Source: Ochromonas danica
Taxonomy: Eukaryota; Sar; Chrysophyceae; Chromulinales; Chromulinaceae
DNA length: 64,000 nucleotides
NCBI GenBank assembly: GCA_015146655.1
Contig: VKHL01000060.1
Coordinates: 82,474-146,473 of the forward strand
Direction of reading: 5' to 3'
The position numbers were made by a program, and so were the translations under genes. Within the stretch, counting starts at the first letter, position 1, and every line of letters begins with the position of its first letter. The notes below the pieces were generated by a model, which made no database searches, was not told the origin of the DNA, and saw only the letters and a list, made by a program, of their open reading frames with translations. Below are positions 17,095 through 54,600 of this stretch, piece after piece.

Positions 17095-17961
17095 ATGAGC
17101 ATCGCTGTCACTGGAGCCACGGGTCAACTGGGTCGTCTTGTCATTAAGCACTTGGTCAAGCAAGCTGGTGCGGGAGTGCAGATCATCGCGGCTGTCCGCT
17201 CTCCTTCCCGTGCCGCAGATCTGGCCGAGCTGGGCATCGAGGTCCGCAAGGCAGACTACACCGAGCCCGCCTCGTTGGAAGAAGCCTTCCGCGGAGTGTC
17301 GAAGCTGTTGTTGATCTCGTCGAACGAGATGGGAAGTCGTGTGGAGCAGCATCGCAATGCGATCGAGGCAGCCAAGCGATGTGGTGTGCAGCTCTTGGTC
17401 TACACGAGTCTTCTGCGCGCTCCCAACAGTCCGTTGACCACATGCACAGTGGAACATGGTGTGAGCGAAGAGATGTTGAAAGGCAGCGGGATCCCTTTCA
17501 TCATCTTGCGCAATGGATGGTACACGGAGAACTACCTGCGCTGTATCCCTGTGGCCTTGCAACATGGAGCTGTGATGGGTGCAGCAGGAGAGGGCAAGAT
17601 CTCGGGTGCTGCTTGTGAAGACTACGCGGAGGCTGCGGTGTCAGTGTTACTGTCCCCTGAGAGCCATGTCAACCAAGTGTACGAGCTGGCGGGAGACGAG
17701 TCCTTCACTCTGAGCGAGTTCGCAGCCGAGTTGAGTGCTCAAGCTGGTCGCAGCATCCCGTATGTGAACATGAGTCAGAGCGAGTATGCCTCGGCTTTGC
17801 TGGGAGCTGGTCTTCCTCAAGCTATTGCTGATCTGATAGCGAACTGTGATGGAGGTGCCTGTCAGGGAGGTTTGTTTGAAGATGGCAAGCAGCTGAGTCG
17901 TCTGATTGGACATGGCACGACTCCTCTGCATGTGTTGATCAAGAGAGCATTACAAGTCTAA
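17095..17961 (+). CDS. qorB: NAD(P)H:quinone oxidoreductase, QorB/YtfG type (NmrA-like SDR)
   Basis: An intronless 288-aa protein, close in length to bacterial QOR2 (286 aa) and colinear with it. It has the Rossmann motif VTGATGQLGRLVI (residues 5-17), the NADP-side AAVRSPSRAADLA, LLLISSNEMGSRVEQHRNAIEAAK, VYTSLL, ILRNGWYTENY, GAAGEGKISGA, VYELAGDESFTL, and the C-terminal GLFEDGKQLSRLIGH. QOR2 reduces quinones with NADPH in the cytosol and is placed in redox protection. The coding DNA is visibly richer in G+C (TCG, GCG, CGC codons) than neighbours, consistent with bacterial origin or high expression. A truncated copy lies at 1-510. The 5' UTR carries CTACTACAG-type repeats. Confidence 0.92.
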   Translation: MSIAVTGATGQLGRLVIKHLVKQAGAGVQIIAAVRSPSRAADLAELGIEVRKADYTEPASLEEAFRGVSKLLLISSNEMGSRVEQHRNAIEAAKRCGVQLLVYTSLLRAPNSPLTTCTVEHGVSEEMLKGSGIPFIILRNGWYTENYLRCIPVALQHGAVMGAAGEGKISGAACEDYAEAAVSVLLSPESHVNQVYELAGDESFTLSEFAAELSAQAGRSIPYVNMSQSEYASALLGAGLPQAIADLIANCDGGACQGGLFEDGKQLSRLIGHGTTPLHVLIKRALQV

Positions 17962-18559: not shown

Positions 18560-20704
18560 ATGGGTGCTGCTGCTTCAGAGATTTCTTTACCATCGTTAAC
18601 CCCTCAGCAAGTTGGGGATATGGTGGCTAACTTAGGCGCTGCCTTTGAGCCATATAAAGCTCGTCTTATTAGTGATGGCATTTCTGGAGATGTCCTCATG
18701 TCGCTATCTGATAGTGATATGAAGGATATGCTCAAGGGTCTTGGTATTGAGAATGTGGTCCATGTGAAAGTTCTTATCTCTCATTTCAACGAATTGAAGG
18801 CTGAAAACTCGACTGTTCATGGAGGTAATGCAGGTGATGTACAAACTGGCAACGATCCTGATTGCTGCAAATACTATGCACTCCCCAGCGACTTCCAAGT
18901 TGGTGAGAAGATTACCAAAACTCCTCGCAACACCATGACGAAACTCTTCGAAATCCAAGGTATTCCCGTTGATCCTACTGATCTTGACACTGCTGTGGAG
19001 AAGATCGCGAAGGCTGTTGGGAGTGGCTTTGGTGACGGGAAGGAGAAGTATGACTGCTTCATTAATTATCGTGTTGCTTCGGATGCTGATTTGGCAGAGA
19101 AGCTGTATTTATACCTTCGCACTAAGTCGATCTATGCATTCCTTGACAAAAAGTGCTTGGAAAATGGTGAGAGGTGGAAGGATGGGTTTTTAACTGGATT
19201 GATGAAAAGCAAGTGCTTCCTTGCCTTGATCTCTCGTAATGGATTGGAACGAGTTCGCGATGAATCAGCTGATCATACTTGGGACAATGTTCTTCTGGAG
19301 TATGAGACTGCTTTGAATGTAAGTATGTCTTTGTTGCATGGCACTAATTTATATGCATCTTTGACATAACTTTCGTTTGTAAATACAACAATATAGATAA
19401 AAGATGTAACCAAGAACCCCAAGTATATCTGTCCACTTCATGTTGGACAATGTGATAAAGGAGTCTTGACCAAGTTCATCGACTTTGCGTCTTCTTTATA
19501 TCCTGACTCAATCGAAGCTGTGAAGAAACCTCCTCCGCCAACTTCAGCAAAGGTGGCAGCCAGCACACCTCCTGTACCACCAGCTGCGCCTCCTGTACCT
19601 GTTCATACCAACAATAACAAGATCGATGAAAGTGAAGATGCCCAAGAAGAAGAGGAGCAAGAAGAAGCTGATGCTGGTGAAGAAGATCAAGAGGCTTATC
19701 ATGATCATGATGATAATAATATTAGAGTATGTGGTGTATGTGATTTGGCACTCAGTCTCCAGCCCAAGGGGACTTGGGGTGATGGTTGGGGCTGTGATTG
19801 GCCTGGTCATGAAGGTCCTAATTATTTCCGTTCCAGCGATCCTTTGTATGGATGCCCCACAGTGAAGGAGTGTAATTGGGGAGTTTGTCAAGCTTGTTGG
19901 GAGAATATTCAAGCAACGATGCAGCAGATGGCAGATGAATCGAAAGAAGAGGATGAGTGGGAAATAGTTGATCAACCGGAAGGTACCCGTTCGAAATACA
20001 ATGATTCTTATTATTGTGATGTGAAGAAGGTGTCATGCAAGATGGACGGAGAGACCGGGTTTACTTGTGTGGTGAATTACAGTGTGAGAGGTGACATGTC
20101 CTTAGGAGCTCTTCAATCCCCCAAGACTTCACGATTGGTCATTGGTGGACATAAATACACTTGTGATGAGTTGAAGATCTATATCCAGGATATGTTTCAA
20201 ATCCAAGGTGACTTGATCTACCATCTGTCGATGGATTGTTTACCTGATTTTGTAGAGAAGCAAGTTGGATTTATCTTTGGTGAGTCTGGGTACAGCACTG
20301 CCCAGTTAGTGGTTCCAGGATCTGAGAACAATTTCTGTACTCTTCCAACATGCTCTAATGGTCATACGATGACGATCTCTGACTATGCCCAGGGTAATTA
20401 TCGCTATGGCTATGTGTGCGATAATTGTCGTCAGGGCAAGCGAGATTTGAGATGGTTTTGCCATCCCTGCTCCTCCGACTTATGCTTTAACTGTCAACCC
20501 ATCATGCCAATGCAACCTGTGTGCAACAAGGGGCATAAGATGGAAAGAAGAACCACCAATCCGAAGGAATATGGCGGGTCAGCTCGTTGTGATGTTTGCA
20601 AGAGAAATAATCTACCTTACGATCCCGAATTCTATCACTGCAAAGATTGCAAATATGATCTCTGCCTCAAATGTACGACTCAGCAAGTTGCCAGTGCGGA
20701 ATAA
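18560..20704 (+). CDS. SAM-TIR protein with C-terminal zinc fingers (SARM1-like TIR)
   Basis: Two exons, 18560-19318 and 19397-20704 (intron GTAAGT...ATATAG, phase 0), giving 688 aa. MGAAAS at the N-terminus is a good N-myristoylation signal. A SAM domain spans about residues 13-78. A TIR domain spans about 163-290: box 1 YDCFINYR, then FLDKKCLENGERW, KSKCFLALIS, and DNVLLEYETAL. In the last block E247 aligns without gaps to the SARM1 catalytic glutamate (DWVHKEIVTAL). A Pro-rich and acidic linker (297-350) follows, then three Cys/His-rich modules (about 365-421, 572-619, 629-679). The last two share C-x-GH...C-x2-C...C-x2-C...C-x2-C spacing, like ZZ or C1-type fingers. TIR NADases cleave NAD+; SAM domains oligomerise them. 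A membrane-tethered stress or immune NADase is a reasonable inference. Confidence 0.85.
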
Positions 20705-47982: not shown

Positions 47983-48402
47983 CTCAATCTGATGATGAAT
48001 GATGAAATGTCACCAATAACGTCTTCTTCTGTGTTGGCGTATCTTTCACAATGTTGTTGTCAAGATTTGCATGCAAGACTGAAAACAAAATTCACTGACG
48101 GCGGACTGCTGGGAGAGCGGGGCTGGTGAACTGTCGCCAAACTGCCAAATTCTGGAACTCTGCAAGAACCCAGAATCTGGGAGTCTAGAAATTAGGCCTG
48201 GCCTGACTTAGTCTACAGTAGTGAGTAGTTTAAGGGGTAGACTAAGCAGGGCCAAAGCATTACTAATATCAGGTAGTTTTCAGAGCGAGGAAAGGAGATT
48301 ACCTGGATTACCTTCCGAATGATACAGCAGATCGCACTGCTTGCTTTGTTACCCTTGACCTTCTCCTTCACCTACAGTACCTCTCTCACTTGCAGTAGTC
48401 CA
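47983..48402. promoter_or_regulatory. Upstream region of the ABCC gene
   Basis: About 420 bp of unique sequence between the ABCC start codon and the satellite. The ABCC promoter is expected here. Several TAGTCTAGACT-type short repeats occur near 48180-48245. No other gene is seen. Confidence 0.4.
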
Positions 48403-51057
48403 CCACTTACACTACACTACACTATACTACACTACACTACATTACATTACACTATACCATACTACATTACATTACACTACACTACACTATATAACACTAC
48501 ACTACACTATACTACATTACACTATACTATACTACATTACACTATACTATACTACACTACACTATACTATACTATACTATACTATACTATACTATACTAT
48601 ACTATACTATATTATACTATACTACACTATACTATACTACACTATACTATACTATACTATACTATACTATACTATACTATACTATACTATACTACACTAT
48701 ACTATACTATACTATACTATACTATACTATACTAAACTATACTATACTATACTATACTATACTACACTATACTATACTACACTATACTATACTACACTAT
48801 ACTACACTACACTATACTATACTATACTATACTATACTACACTATACTACACTATACTACACTACACTACACTATACTACACTATACTACATTACACTGT
48901 ACTATACTACATTACACTATACTATACTCACTACACTACACTACACTATACTACACTACACTACACTACACTATACTATACTACACTACACTATACTATA
49001 CTACACTACACTACACTATACTACACTACACTATACTATACTATACTACACTACACTACACTATACTACATTACACTATACTATACTATACTATACTATA
49101 CTACATTACACTACACTATACTATACTATACTACACTACACTATACTACACTACACTACACTACACTATACTATACTACACTATACTATACTATACTATA
49201 CTATACTATACTATACTATACTATACTATACTACACTATACTATACTATACTATACTATACTATACTATACTAAACTATACTATACTATACTATACTATA
49301 CTACACTATACTATACTACACTATACTATACTACACTATACTACACTACACTATACTATACTATACTATACTATACTACACTATACTACACTATACTACA
49401 CTACACTACACTATACTACACTATACTACATTACACTGTACTATACTACATTACACTATACTATACTCACTACACTACACTACACTATACTACACTACAC
49501 TACACTACACTATACTATACTACACTACACTATACTATACTACACTACACTACACTATACTACACTACACTATACTATACTATACTACACTACACTACAC
49601 TATACTACATTACACTATACTATACTATACTATACTATACTACATTACACTACACTATACTATACTATACTACACTACACTATACTACACTACACTACAC
49701 TACACTATACTATACTACACTATACTATACTATACTATACTATACTATACTATACTATACTATACTATACTACACTATACTATACTATACTATACTATAC
49801 TATACTATACTAAACTATACTATACTATACTATACTATACTACACTATACTATACTACACTATACTATACTACACTATACTACACTACACTATACTATAC
49901 TATACTATACTATACTACACTATACTACACTATACTACACTACACTACACTATACTACACTATACTACATTACACTGTACTATACTACATTACACTATAC
50001 TATACTCACTACACTACACTACACTATACTACACTACACTACACTACACTATACTATACTACACTACACTATACTATACTACACTACACTACACTATACT
50101 ACACTACACTATACTATACTATACTACACTACACTACACTATACTACATTACACTATACTATACTATACTATACTATACTACATTACACTACACTATACT
50201 ATACTATACTACACTACACTATACTACACTACACTACACTACACTATACTATACTACACTATACTATACTATACTATACTATACTATACTATACTATACT
50301 ATACTATACTACACTATACTATACTATACTATACTATACTATACTATACTAAACTATACTATACTATACTATACTATACTACACTATACTATACTACACT
50401 ATACTATACTACACTATACTACACTACACTATACTATACTATACTATACTATACTACACTATACTACACTATACTACACTACACTACACTATACTACACT
50501 ATACTACATTACACTGTACTATACTACATTACACTATACTATACTCACTACACTACACTACACTATACTACACTACACTACACTACACTATACTATACTA
50601 CACTACACTATACTATACTACACTACACTACACTATACTACACTACACTATACTATACTATACTACACTACACTACACTATACTACATTACACTATACTA
50701 TACTATACTATACTATACTACATTACACTACACTATACTATACTATACTACACTACACTATACTACACTACACTACACTACACTATACTATACTACACTA
50801 TACTATACTATACTATACTATACTATACTATACTATACTATACTATACTACACTATACTATACTATACTATACTATACTATACTATACTAAACTATACTA
50901 TACTATACTATACTATACTACACTATACTATACTACACTATACTATACTACACTATACTACACTACACTATACTATACTATACTATACTATACTACACTA
51001 TACTACACTATACTACACTACACTACACTATACTACACTATACTACACTACACTACA
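48403..51057. repeat. ACTAT/ACTAC satellite with a 539-bp higher-order repeat
   Basis: 2.65 kb made almost only of 5-bp units ACTAT and ACTAC, with sparse ATTAC, ACTAA and CTCAC variants. The variants recur at a fixed spacing. The CTAAAC variant occurs near 48733, 49272, 49811, 50350 and 50889. The CTCACTAC variant occurs at 48927, 49466, 50005 and 50544. The GTACTATAC variant occurs near 48898, 49437, 49976 and 50515. All spacings are 539 bp. This gives about five near-identical higher-order units. There is no coding potential. Confidence 0.97.
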
Positions 51058-51629
51058 TCTCGAAGTGAGCCAGCCTCACGTAATACCAACACTAACTTCA
51101 CTCTAGGCTTACTACCAACTAGTCTACTCTGAGAGAAAGAAGAGAAGAAGTAGTGGTGGAAAGAAATGTATACATCACTATTATTATTACAATCAACAAC
51201 CATCACTACTATCGTTGTTAGTAGACTGACTGACCAGCTACTGTAGCTATATTTACATACACAGCAGCAGAAGCACTACATTGTGTGAGTGATGTAGTTG
51301 ACTGCGCTGCACTACTGCAGTAGTGGTGAATGAATGAATGAGGTAGAGAGAGAGAAAGGAAGTGATATTCTATTACAATTGAATGAAAAAGAAGACACAT
51401 CATGTCATCTGAATATCATCATCATCCATGGCGACCACAATAAAGAAAAGCTTTGAATCTCACCTTCCACACAATTCCATCCAAGCATTCCACGCAATTC
51501 CATCCAAAACAATTCCATCTGATTCCATTCAGGTATTCCACCCAATTCCATACAAACACACCACACGATGATAGCACACGACGATGATAGCACATGATGA
51601 TCGCATAGCATAGCGTAGGTAATGATTGA
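51058..51629. other. Spacer with ATTCCA-rich degenerate repeat
   Basis: Downstream flank of the TTLL gene. Between 51470 and 51562 there are six copies of a CAATTCCATCCAA-like unit mixed with GCATTCCACG. Elsewhere simple GA-rich and ATCATC runs occur. No gene is supported. Confidence 0.5.
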
Positions 51630-54600
51630 TTAAAACCAAGAAGGAAATAGTTGCTTTAACAACTCTTCCTGTTTCCCTCCTCCTCCTCCTCCTCCACCTC
51701 CTCCTGCTCCATTCTGTTGTAGTTGTAGTTGTTGCTGAGAGAGGGTACCAGCATTGATATGATGACCATACGAGACTTGTGATGATGATGAAGGTGGTAG
51801 CTGTGCTTGCTGCTGTTGTTGCTGTTGTGACAGAGAAGGGGTAGAGAACAGCAATCCCGCTGCATTTGCTGCTAGCTTACTACTTGATGATCGACCCAGC
51901 GCTGCCAGACCATCCGGATGTCCACCTCCTCCTCCTCCTCCTACCACTCCTCCTCCTCCTCCTACACTGAGAGGTAATCCTAAATGCCCCATCACAGGAG
52001 AAGGTCCATTGGTAGGATGAGGATGTAGTCCCTGCTGGTGATGCATGGCCATAGCAGCAGCAGCAGCGGCAGCTAGGTTAGCCATGGAGTTGTTCTCATA
52101 GTTGGGGTCGAAGAAGAAGACCTGCTGACGAAGTACCGCACCATTCTGACTGCGTTGAGCCTCTACACGAAGACGATTCCTTCGTGCTTCTTCATACAAT
52201 CGATTAGCTTTAGTAGATGGCCAGAGAGTGGTAGCACTGTCTTGTGGAGGAGGGTAGAAGCCTCCTCCTCCTGCTCCACCACACTCTTGAGGATCTAGTA
52301 CCACACTATAACATGTTCCCTCCACTGTTGTCTGTATAGAACTAGTACGTCTTGATCGTGCTGAGGATGAGTTAGAGTTGGATAAGGAGGAGGAGGTGGA
52401 GGTGGAGGCTACTGATAGTCCCTGGGATAGTCTCTTAGCAGACTCCAATTGAGAGGCGGTAGGCTGCTTTACACCTCCTCCTCCTCCTGCTCCTCCTTCC
52501 TTTGACTTAGGAGGAGCTTTCCAACCTACTACACCTTTGCCAGTCATAGAGGAGGTGTTACTAGTAGTGGAGGAGGAGGAGGAGGAGGGTAGAGGTCTAG
52601 CAGAGGAGGAGCCATCCAGAGGAGGTAGAAAGCCATCATCCATCTTAGATCGATTAGGTAATGGACAACGAAGACGCATGGTTTGTCGTCGATCTTGTAG
52701 AAAGACTTGATAGATGATGTCTTCATAGGTAGCAATCTTCTTCTTAGGAGCAGTTCCGGTAGGAGTGGAGGAGGAGGAGGAGGAGGGGGCGGTAGCAGAG
52801 GTCGTTCCTCCTCCTCCTCCTCCTACACCACCTACACCTCCATCCTCATCTTCTTCCTCTTCTTCTTTCTCTTCTTCTTCTTCATTGTCATTACTCATCG
52901 AAGTCGTATTACCAAACCCTCCTCCTCCTCCTCCTACACCACCATCTCCTCCTCCTCCTACACTTAGACCTGCTTGAGAGGCTAAATGAGGGTTCTCTAG
53001 TCGTACAGCAGTGATGTAGTCCACTTCCTTCTCTTTGGGTAGCGGAGGGAAGACTCGAGTGAACTGTGTGAGCTTGGACATCTCATACCTCATCCACTCC
53101 TCCTCCTCCTCCGGCACGTGTTCACGAAGGATATCCTGACGATACTGTGCTTCTTCATCAGGGGGAGCTTTCCAAGCAGCTGACATACGACGAACTGCAC
53201 TGTTACCATTGACATTACCATTGCCTCCTCCTCCTCCTCCTGCTCCACTGGTAGGAGTCTTCTTGGTACGAGGAGGAGAGAGAGAGCGAGAGATACGCTT
53301 GGCCATACCCTATAGTAGCACACATAACACAGTGAGTGAGTGAGTGACAAGGTAGAGACAAGGAGGTGCAGTGAGGTAGAGTGTAGTGCAGTACAAGGTA
53401 GAGCAAGGTAGTGTAGGGTAGTAGGTTCTTCTTCTTACCTCTGCAGCATTATTGCGATGATTGACTTGAGAATCTGTTCGAACACTTTCATTATCTCCAT
53501 TATCTCCCTCCCCTCCTCCTCCTCCTCCATCATCACCTCCTCCTCCTCCACCACTATTCTCTCCTTCATTACTATACACCATCGTAGCAGCAGCAGCATT
53601 AGCAGCATTAGCAGTAGCAGCAGCAAGTCTAGCATACTTCTCCTTCTCATAGGTAGCAGGAGAGACGTTGTACTTGGCATAGACAAAGCGCAGGAACTCT
53701 TCCTCATGGCCTACATACTTCTGAAGTAGTCGATCTATCTTGTTGATCTTCTCGGCACTATAGATGGTATAGATCTCTCGAAGAATACGTTTGATCTCTT
53801 CAATACGTTCTGGGGTACATTCTTCATCAATGATCTCTATAGGAGGTGGACTAGGAGCAGGAGCAGGAGGAGCAGTAGTAGGAGGAGGAGCAGTGGTAGT
53901 AGTAGAATCACTATTCTTCTGCTCTTCTTCATTCGTTCCTAATGGAGGAGAAACACTACCACCACCACCACCACCACCTCCTGTATTATTACCACTACCT
54001 CCTCCTCCTCCTCCTCCTGCTCCTGCTCCTCGGGTAGTACGACTATTCGATCTCTCCACACTCGTCCCATCTCTTCTTCTTCCTATCAGAGGAGGAGCAT
54101 TACCCGTTCTCCATACCTTCTGTGCTTGTGCTCGACTATTCTCCATGGCTAGCATCTTCTCTGCCTGCCTCCTCTCTGCCTCTACCTTCATCTGATACCC
54201 ATAGGCTACTGCATCATCAGGTAGACAAGGTAAGACAGAGAAGACTTGTTGCATGAGTCTTTCTTTCACATCTAAGTCTAATGCACTATCAGTACCAAAA
54301 GAGGGTAGATGGTTCACTTCAATGAGGGTAGGGTTTAACTTGTCGTCTATCATGATATCAAAGCCTAGCACTTCAATACAACGTGATCCTCGTATTTGAG
54401 GTGAGCAGGAGGAGGAGGAGGAGGAGGAAGTAGCACCATCCTTATCATAGTTATCTATACCTTGTTCAGTACTACTACTACCACCTCCTCCTGCTCCTCC
54501 TTCGTCTTGTCCCTCCTCCTCCTCCTGCTCCTCTTCACCTTCTTCTTCCTCCTCCTCCTGCTCTTCTTCTCCTCCACCACTATCACTACTATTTCCATTG

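Follow-up and report, generated by a model that had tools for sequence, protein, structure and literature searches.

Our analysis of a 64,000-nucleotide stretch of DNA (the window) revealed a gene of near-certain SAM-TIR architecture at 18560-20704 on the plus strand, consisting of two exons and a 78-bp intron and encoding a protein of 688 aa. By analogy to SARM1, this protein may be a SARM1-type effector, a SAM-assembled and membrane-tethered TIR that would cleave NAD+ and carry a sensor composed of zinc fingers and a beta-sandwich, a reading to which we give an even chance. The features of the gene are as follows.

18560..19318, plus strand: exon 1, residues 1-253, with the MGAAAS N-terminus, SAM, pre-TIR segment, and most of the TIR
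18560..18577, plus strand: MGAAAS myristoylation-type N-terminus, residues 1-6
18593..18799, plus strand: SAM domain, residues 12-80 (Pfam SAM_2; SAM fold in the P0001 model)
18917..19042, plus strand: conserved pre-TIR segment, residues 120-161 (PRxxM..LFxIQGI..DPxDLD)
19046..19510, plus strand: TIR domain, residues 163-291, split by the intron 19319-19396
19298..19300, plus strand: E247 codon, aligned with SARM1 E642
19319..19396, plus strand: intron (GTAAGT...ATATAG, 78 bp), at a position common to relatives
19397..20704, plus strand: exon 2, residues 254-688 and stop
19508..19723, plus strand: linker, proline-rich then acidic, residues 291-362, mostly of low confidence in the P0001 model
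19730..19897, plus strand: Cys/His module 1, C365 to C420, with 8 putative zinc ligands
19958..20317, plus strand: beta-sandwich, residues about 441-560, between modules 1 and 2
20351..20494, plus strand: Cys/His module 2, C572 to C619, ZZ/C1-like
20522..20674, plus strand: Cys/His module 3, C629 to C679, C1_2-like

The sequence-only reading had described a 688-aa protein with an MGxxxS start, one SAM, one TIR, and three Cys/His modules, and this description was borne out by Pfam, by alignments, and by the structural model of a relative, P0001. This EukProt protein has the same architecture and is 54% identical across 100% of the query, and P0003 and P0005 share the architecture with 41% and 39% identity, respectively, over 99% of it. 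Five alternative GT-AG pairs likewise kept the frame open (667-687 aa); the intron at 19319-19396 was preferred because of the quality of its donor and acceptor and because the resulting junction, IKDVTKNPKYICPLH, agrees with the relatives. Intron GC content was 0.295, versus exon values of 0.444 and 0.446, and the ATG is closely preceded by an in-frame stop. The intron is positioned inside the TIR, six codons 3′ of E247. Several relatives whose sequences come from unspliced contigs, such as P0054, P0056, P0058, and P0062, stop at or shortly past the intron site, as does the EukProt model P0065, and P0008, P0009, P0012, and P0013 begin shortly past it; the intron position therefore looks conserved, since these ends and starts cluster at the same place. 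Because this break is common to relatives and exon 2 carries the remainder of the TIR, exon 2 belongs to the gene. An artefactual gene model, in which a SAM-TIR gene had been fused with a zinc-finger gene, might be suspected from the single intron between most of the TIR and the fingers and from a model derived from DNA alone, but it is barely credible given an intron located within the TIR at a shared position, and the fusion was rejected because P0001, P0003, and P0005 are colinear with the query from end to end. The assignment of the zinc-finger exon to the SAM-TIR gene thus stands.

The TIR domain was recognized by Pfam TIR_2 (PF13676) at residues 167-284 (E 8.6e-10, above the cut-off), and the TIR part of the P0001 model was of middling confidence (10-residue means of 53-90). 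A TIR profile built from 13 rows (alignment A3) retrieved SARM1 first from the PDB (1.1e-9), followed by AbTir (3e-6) and plant Roq1 (6.2e-6). E247 lies in WDNVLLEYETAL, and the earlier claim that this block aligns without gaps to the glutamate block of SARM1, with E247 at the catalytic position, holds in the profile alignment; an alignment of the single sequences required a 2-residue gap there. Alignment of 98 family proteins plus the query to the TIR profile gave 98 rows from 94 of the 99 proteins (5 proteins had no match and some gave two rows), and 26 rows stop short of the glutamate column. The E247 column was glutamate in all 72 rows that reach it. Like SARM1, the query has equivalents of Y568, R569, D594, L598, and G601, and across the rows the equivalents of Y568 (85/85), R569 (87/88), and D594 (90/90) were retained, together with that of G601 (83/89) and an aromatic residue at F603 (88/88). 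Four other positions of SARM1 are changed in the query, with W638 replaced by asparagine (N243), E596 by lysine, K597 by cysteine, and H640 by leucine. These changes are shared by the family: 69 of 72 rows carry N at the W638 position, two carry H, and one carries I, with tryptophan in none; lysine occupied the E596 position in 73/89, cysteine the K597 position in 82/89, and leucine the H640 position in 71/72. The BB-loop motif of SARM1 is E(R/K)LEAG (excerpts of PMC7075850); the corresponding loop in the query, KCLENG, keeps L598, E599, and G601, with E596 and K597 changed. Mutants of SARM1, including those at W638, H640, G601, Y568, and E642, showed a 100- to 2000-fold decrease in catalytic efficiency (excerpts of PMC8266388), and E596K was among the mutations that revealed a functionally important interface (excerpts of PMC8635717).

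The glutamate at the catalytic position is retained by more than 70% of TIRs overall and by more than 90% of the TLR1/2/6/10 subgroup, and its frequency in TLR subgroups does not track reported activity (excerpts of PMC7075850), so that the glutamate alone argues weakly for catalysis. The NADase activity of our TIR is accordingly plausible, not established, because W638, E596, K597, and H640 are not kept and the glutamate is widespread. A non-enzymatic scaffold, in which SAM and TIR build a signaling platform and E247 is structural, as in TLR-type TIRs, would accommodate both the commonness of this glutamate in TLR subgroups and the SARM1 W638 and E596/K597 pattern missing in nearly all rows, but it sits poorly with the joint near-invariance of the glutamate and the Y568, R569, D594, and G601 equivalents and with the solved relatives of the TIR profile to E 1e-5 (SARM1, AbTir, Roq1, and plant AT1G72930); we consider it rather unlikely.

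The TIR profile scored AbTir and the plant TIR NADases below SARM1, and to our knowledge these enzymes have no SAM. The tryptophan W204 of AbTir, whose position is asparagine in the query, presumably sits four residues before the AbTir glutamate. The W204A substitution significantly reduced the NADase activity of AbTir and yielded, in addition to the usual RNA product, one that is non-cyclic (excerpts of PMC10937652). In our family, aspartate precedes the glutamate by five residues in 72/72 rows and asparagine by four in 69/72 (D242-N243 in the query), and the second TIR gene of the same genome also reads DNxxxE (DNCQQE). This pair points to another possibility, that the protein generates a signal rather than depleting NAD, forming a special nucleotide product that is read elsewhere, with D242-N243 in place of the tryptophan. 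Eukaryote-only TIR clades are uncharacterized and kinship among TIRs does not predict the product (excerpts of PMC13142454), which leaves room for such a signal, but the D-N pair may equally be structural, and we regard this role as improbable. For a NAD-cleaving TIR, poor cyclization would be expected because the position of the cyclization tryptophan is asparagine.

The MGxxx[S/T/A/G/C/N] start is the N-myristoylation consensus. Of 99 proteins examined, including the query, 72 have a TIR preceded by more than 110 residues, and 52 of these begin with MGxxx[STAGCN]; the other 20 include proteins with fused domains, cut starts, or, in the case of P0022, a start placed before the motif. The myristoylation-type N-terminus noticed previously is therefore a common trait of the family, and such a shared start supports, without proving, N-myristoylation. 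Pfam SAM_2 (PF07647) matched residues 12-80 (E 8.4e-5, above the cut-off), and the P0001 model contained a SAM fold with a pLDDT of 92-96; a single SAM was found by Pfam in the query and in the P0001 model. A hidden tandem SAM was rejected, as only one SAM folds in P0001, though the best stretch for the profile is SAM2 of SARM1/TIR-1. Downstream of the SAM, the 42-residue pre-TIR segment (window 18917-19042) was conserved to P0001 as strongly as the TIR, and it also accompanies the TIR in P0044, whose precomputed Pfam domains list thioredoxin and no SAM.

SARM1 and the query share the order SAM then TIR and the glutamate at the catalytic position, as does TIR-1, the worm SARM1. The family profile aligned in order across SAM-SAM-TIR of SARM1 (E 1.7e-10), and Foldseek with the P0001 model placed SARM1 and TIR-1 on top (6.0e-5 and 9.9e-5). 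SARM1 has two SAMs, in the order ARM-SAM-SAM-TIR with the TIR last, whereas the query has one SAM and no ARM and follows the order SAM, TIR, Cys/His, beta-sandwich, Cys/His, Cys/His. Its C-terminal Cys/His modules, beta-sandwich, and MGxxxS N-terminus further set it apart from SARM1. Orthology to SARM1 was rejected: the protein is not SARM1, because four defining features that were tested, namely the domain order, the tandem SAM, W638, and the BB-loop motif, are all absent from it (the E642 glutamate is present).

The proposal that SAM and TIR are of the SARM1 type was upheld in that SARM1 or TIR-1 was the best PDB sequence match for the profiles of both domains, TIR-1 topping the SAM list (2.9e-10) ahead of SARM1 tandem-SAM chains (from 2.8e-7). 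This ranking also argues against an origin of the SAM-TIR pairing independent of SARM1, in which the likeness of the didomain would be convergent, although it is suggestive only, since the PDB samples proteins sparsely and with a bias towards animals. A single SARM1 SAM domain (full-length chains, 2.6e-5) just tied with another SAM, 1v85 (2e-5), in the profile search, and 15 other SAM chains scored at least as well as SARM1 in the fold comparison. Together with the reversed order of ARM in relatives (SAM-TIR-ARM) and the placement of the SARM1 TIR in a mainly bacterial clade of a published tree (excerpts of PMC13142454), these results make convergence a serious prospect that we put slightly below an even chance; it concerns descent and not mechanism.

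The Cys/His ligands of the C-terminal half (module 1: C365, C368, C386, H391, C406, C412, C417, and C420; module 2: C572, H576, C594, C597, C608, C611, C616, and C619; module 3: C629, H633, C651, C654, H667, C668, C671, C676, and C679) were each conserved in 16/16 sequences (the query plus 15 selected relatives); the exceptions were C572 (15/16) and C671 (10/16). Pfam C1_2 matched residues 644-679 (E 6.1e-5) with 23.7 bits versus a cut-off of 26, which P0001 exceeded with 27.9, and Pfam ZZ in P0001 scored 18.7 versus a cut-off of 21.4 (E 0.0015). The beta-sandwich is an additional domain that was missed in the first reading; the folds of 4eae, 4les, and 4r4g are presumably those labeled DUF4352-like. 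Between the query and P0001, identity was 83% in the pre-TIR segment, 80% in the TIR, 58% in the SAM, 33% in the linker, 48-56% in the modules, and 50% in the beta-sandwich. The core was more conserved than the C-terminus, which would fit a constant effector joined to a faster-changing sensor; the identity of the SAM just slightly exceeds that of the C-terminus.

The relatives, many of them from metagenome contigs, retain the SAM-TIR core while the C-terminus varies and includes ARM repeats. The order was SAM-TIR-ARM in P0022 and P0029 and SAM-TIR-ARM-SPRY in P0019 and P0021; these proteins are homologous to the query in SAM, pre-TIR segment, and TIR over approximately the first 300 residues and likewise carry MGxxxS at the start, which in P0022 follows an upstream extension. 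The range of C-termini among the relatives, including the SAM-TIR-ARM order, which places the ARM of SARM1 at the opposite end, was the strongest surprise of the analysis. SARM1 was absent among the 50 matches listed for P0029, which were dominated by importins, catenins, and designed ARM proteins, an absence that speaks against nothing. The earlier suggestion that C-terminal fingers replace the ARM domain was right in that the fingers are C-terminal, but a beta-sandwich is also present and the fingers are just one of several alternative C-termini, because ARM takes this C-terminal position in relatives. According to precomputed Pfam domains, this TIR type was also combined (in P0030, P0059, P0063, P0044, P0046, and P0067) with actin, a Roc-type GTPase (PF08477), protein kinase, thioredoxin, and MORN. 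The relatives with alternative C-termini hint at a family of modular switches for cell death or defense.

A TIR_2 search of the 31.2-Mb genome, which disregarded introns so that further TIR genes may be hidden, found two loci, the query and one other; a PF01582 search of the same genome, likewise disregarding introns, gave no match at 1e-3. The second TIR gene (G000:C19:168438-168791; L001:1300-2829) encodes 510 aa with an MGAMAS start and is 100% identical to the EukProt protein P0099. Its TIR comes first (TIR_2, 2.1e-11) and is of a different type (FLTHDWG, DNCQQE), followed by a SAM-like stretch and then Cys-rich fingers; the SAM-like stretch was 24% identical to the SAM of P0001 (E 0.036 when the two sequences were compared with each other) and had no Pfam SAM match. 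The two genes, of different TIR types, seem from their sequences to share a kit of domains in another order. WD40 (PF00400) was listed in 23/54 matches of the second TIR gene. A search with its finger found P0140, which combines a PARP catalytic domain with ZZ/IBR-like finger repeats; this finger type therefore also accompanies another NAD-using domain.

Several further observations concern the window and the genome. Adjoining the SAM-TIR gene, a one-frame NmrA/NAD_binding_10 gene (17095-17961, plus strand) lies in a GC-richer 2-kb stretch (0.475), and its nearest solved protein is ytfG (2.5e-87); it is a candidate for acquisition from bacteria. A DDE_Tnp_4/Plant_tran transposase ORF, which we take to be PIF/Harbinger-like, occupies 926-2407 on the minus strand, and 48001-52000 is strand-asymmetric, with a very strong GC skew (-0.69 and -0.49) and low GC. 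The genome gave 47 matches to the light-harvesting family and is therefore that of a photosynthetic eukaryote. One light-harvesting protein has a signal-peptide-like start followed by AF, presumably a hint of a red-type complex plastid, and four light-harvesting gene copies of equal score in exact 2407-base steps at G000:C224:8673-16382 represent either a recent tandem array or a repeat of the assembly.

In the mechanism that we propose, the SAM-TIR gene, a host gene in a photosynthetic eukaryote, would encode a SARM1-like signaling enzyme with a different sensor. N-myristoylation, suggested by the common motif, would tether the protein to a membrane, and the C-terminal arm of three Cys/His modules and a beta-sandwich may keep it inactive or bind a ligand or partner. 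Upon release, SAM would assemble the TIRs into a ring or filament, as in SARM1, and the assembled TIRs may split NAD+ via E247. The product would be plain ADP-ribose, or the effect NAD loss, rather than efficient cyclization, and the outcome may be cell death or a defense or stress response. The query is thus plausibly SARM1-like, working with another sensor. TirC of Dictyostelium is comparable in that it, too, is a microbial-eukaryote TIR protein whose N-terminus carries a membrane element, but it has a bacterial-derived TIR, a transmembrane helix, and demonstrated NADase activity, whereas that of the query is predicted; SAM or zinc fingers are not mentioned for TirC in the available excerpts (PMC13142454).

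Scans based on TIR alignment A3 gave 23 pattern matches in prokaryotes (84,980 species, one genome each) and 59 in viral contigs, none of which was confirmed (tblastn, 1e-3), with patterns so short and strict that distant relatives would escape. In the open-licence literature, no title or abstract opening among the matches listed concerned algal SAM-TIR-zinc-finger or SAM-TIR-ARM proteins, and neither architecture appeared in the excerpts of PMC7159879, PMC10197012, and PMC8635717. Caspases and other canonical components of cell death are reportedly missing from phytoplankton (excerpts of PMC8455989). We tentatively suggest that algae, and probably other protists, possess an uncharacterized, N-myristoylated SAM-TIR effector family that has an ancestral core in common with SARM1 and exchanges its C-terminal sensors, among them zinc fingers plus a beta-sandwich, ARM, and ARM-SPRY, much as NLRs do, which would amount to membrane-tethered, NAD-cleaving immune or cell-death receptors outside animals and plants. 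If true, algal proteins combining a constant SAM-TIR core and varied C-termini would constitute a testable gene family for phytoplankton cell death and would offer a natural experiment on SARM1-type gating with ARM absent or at the other end.
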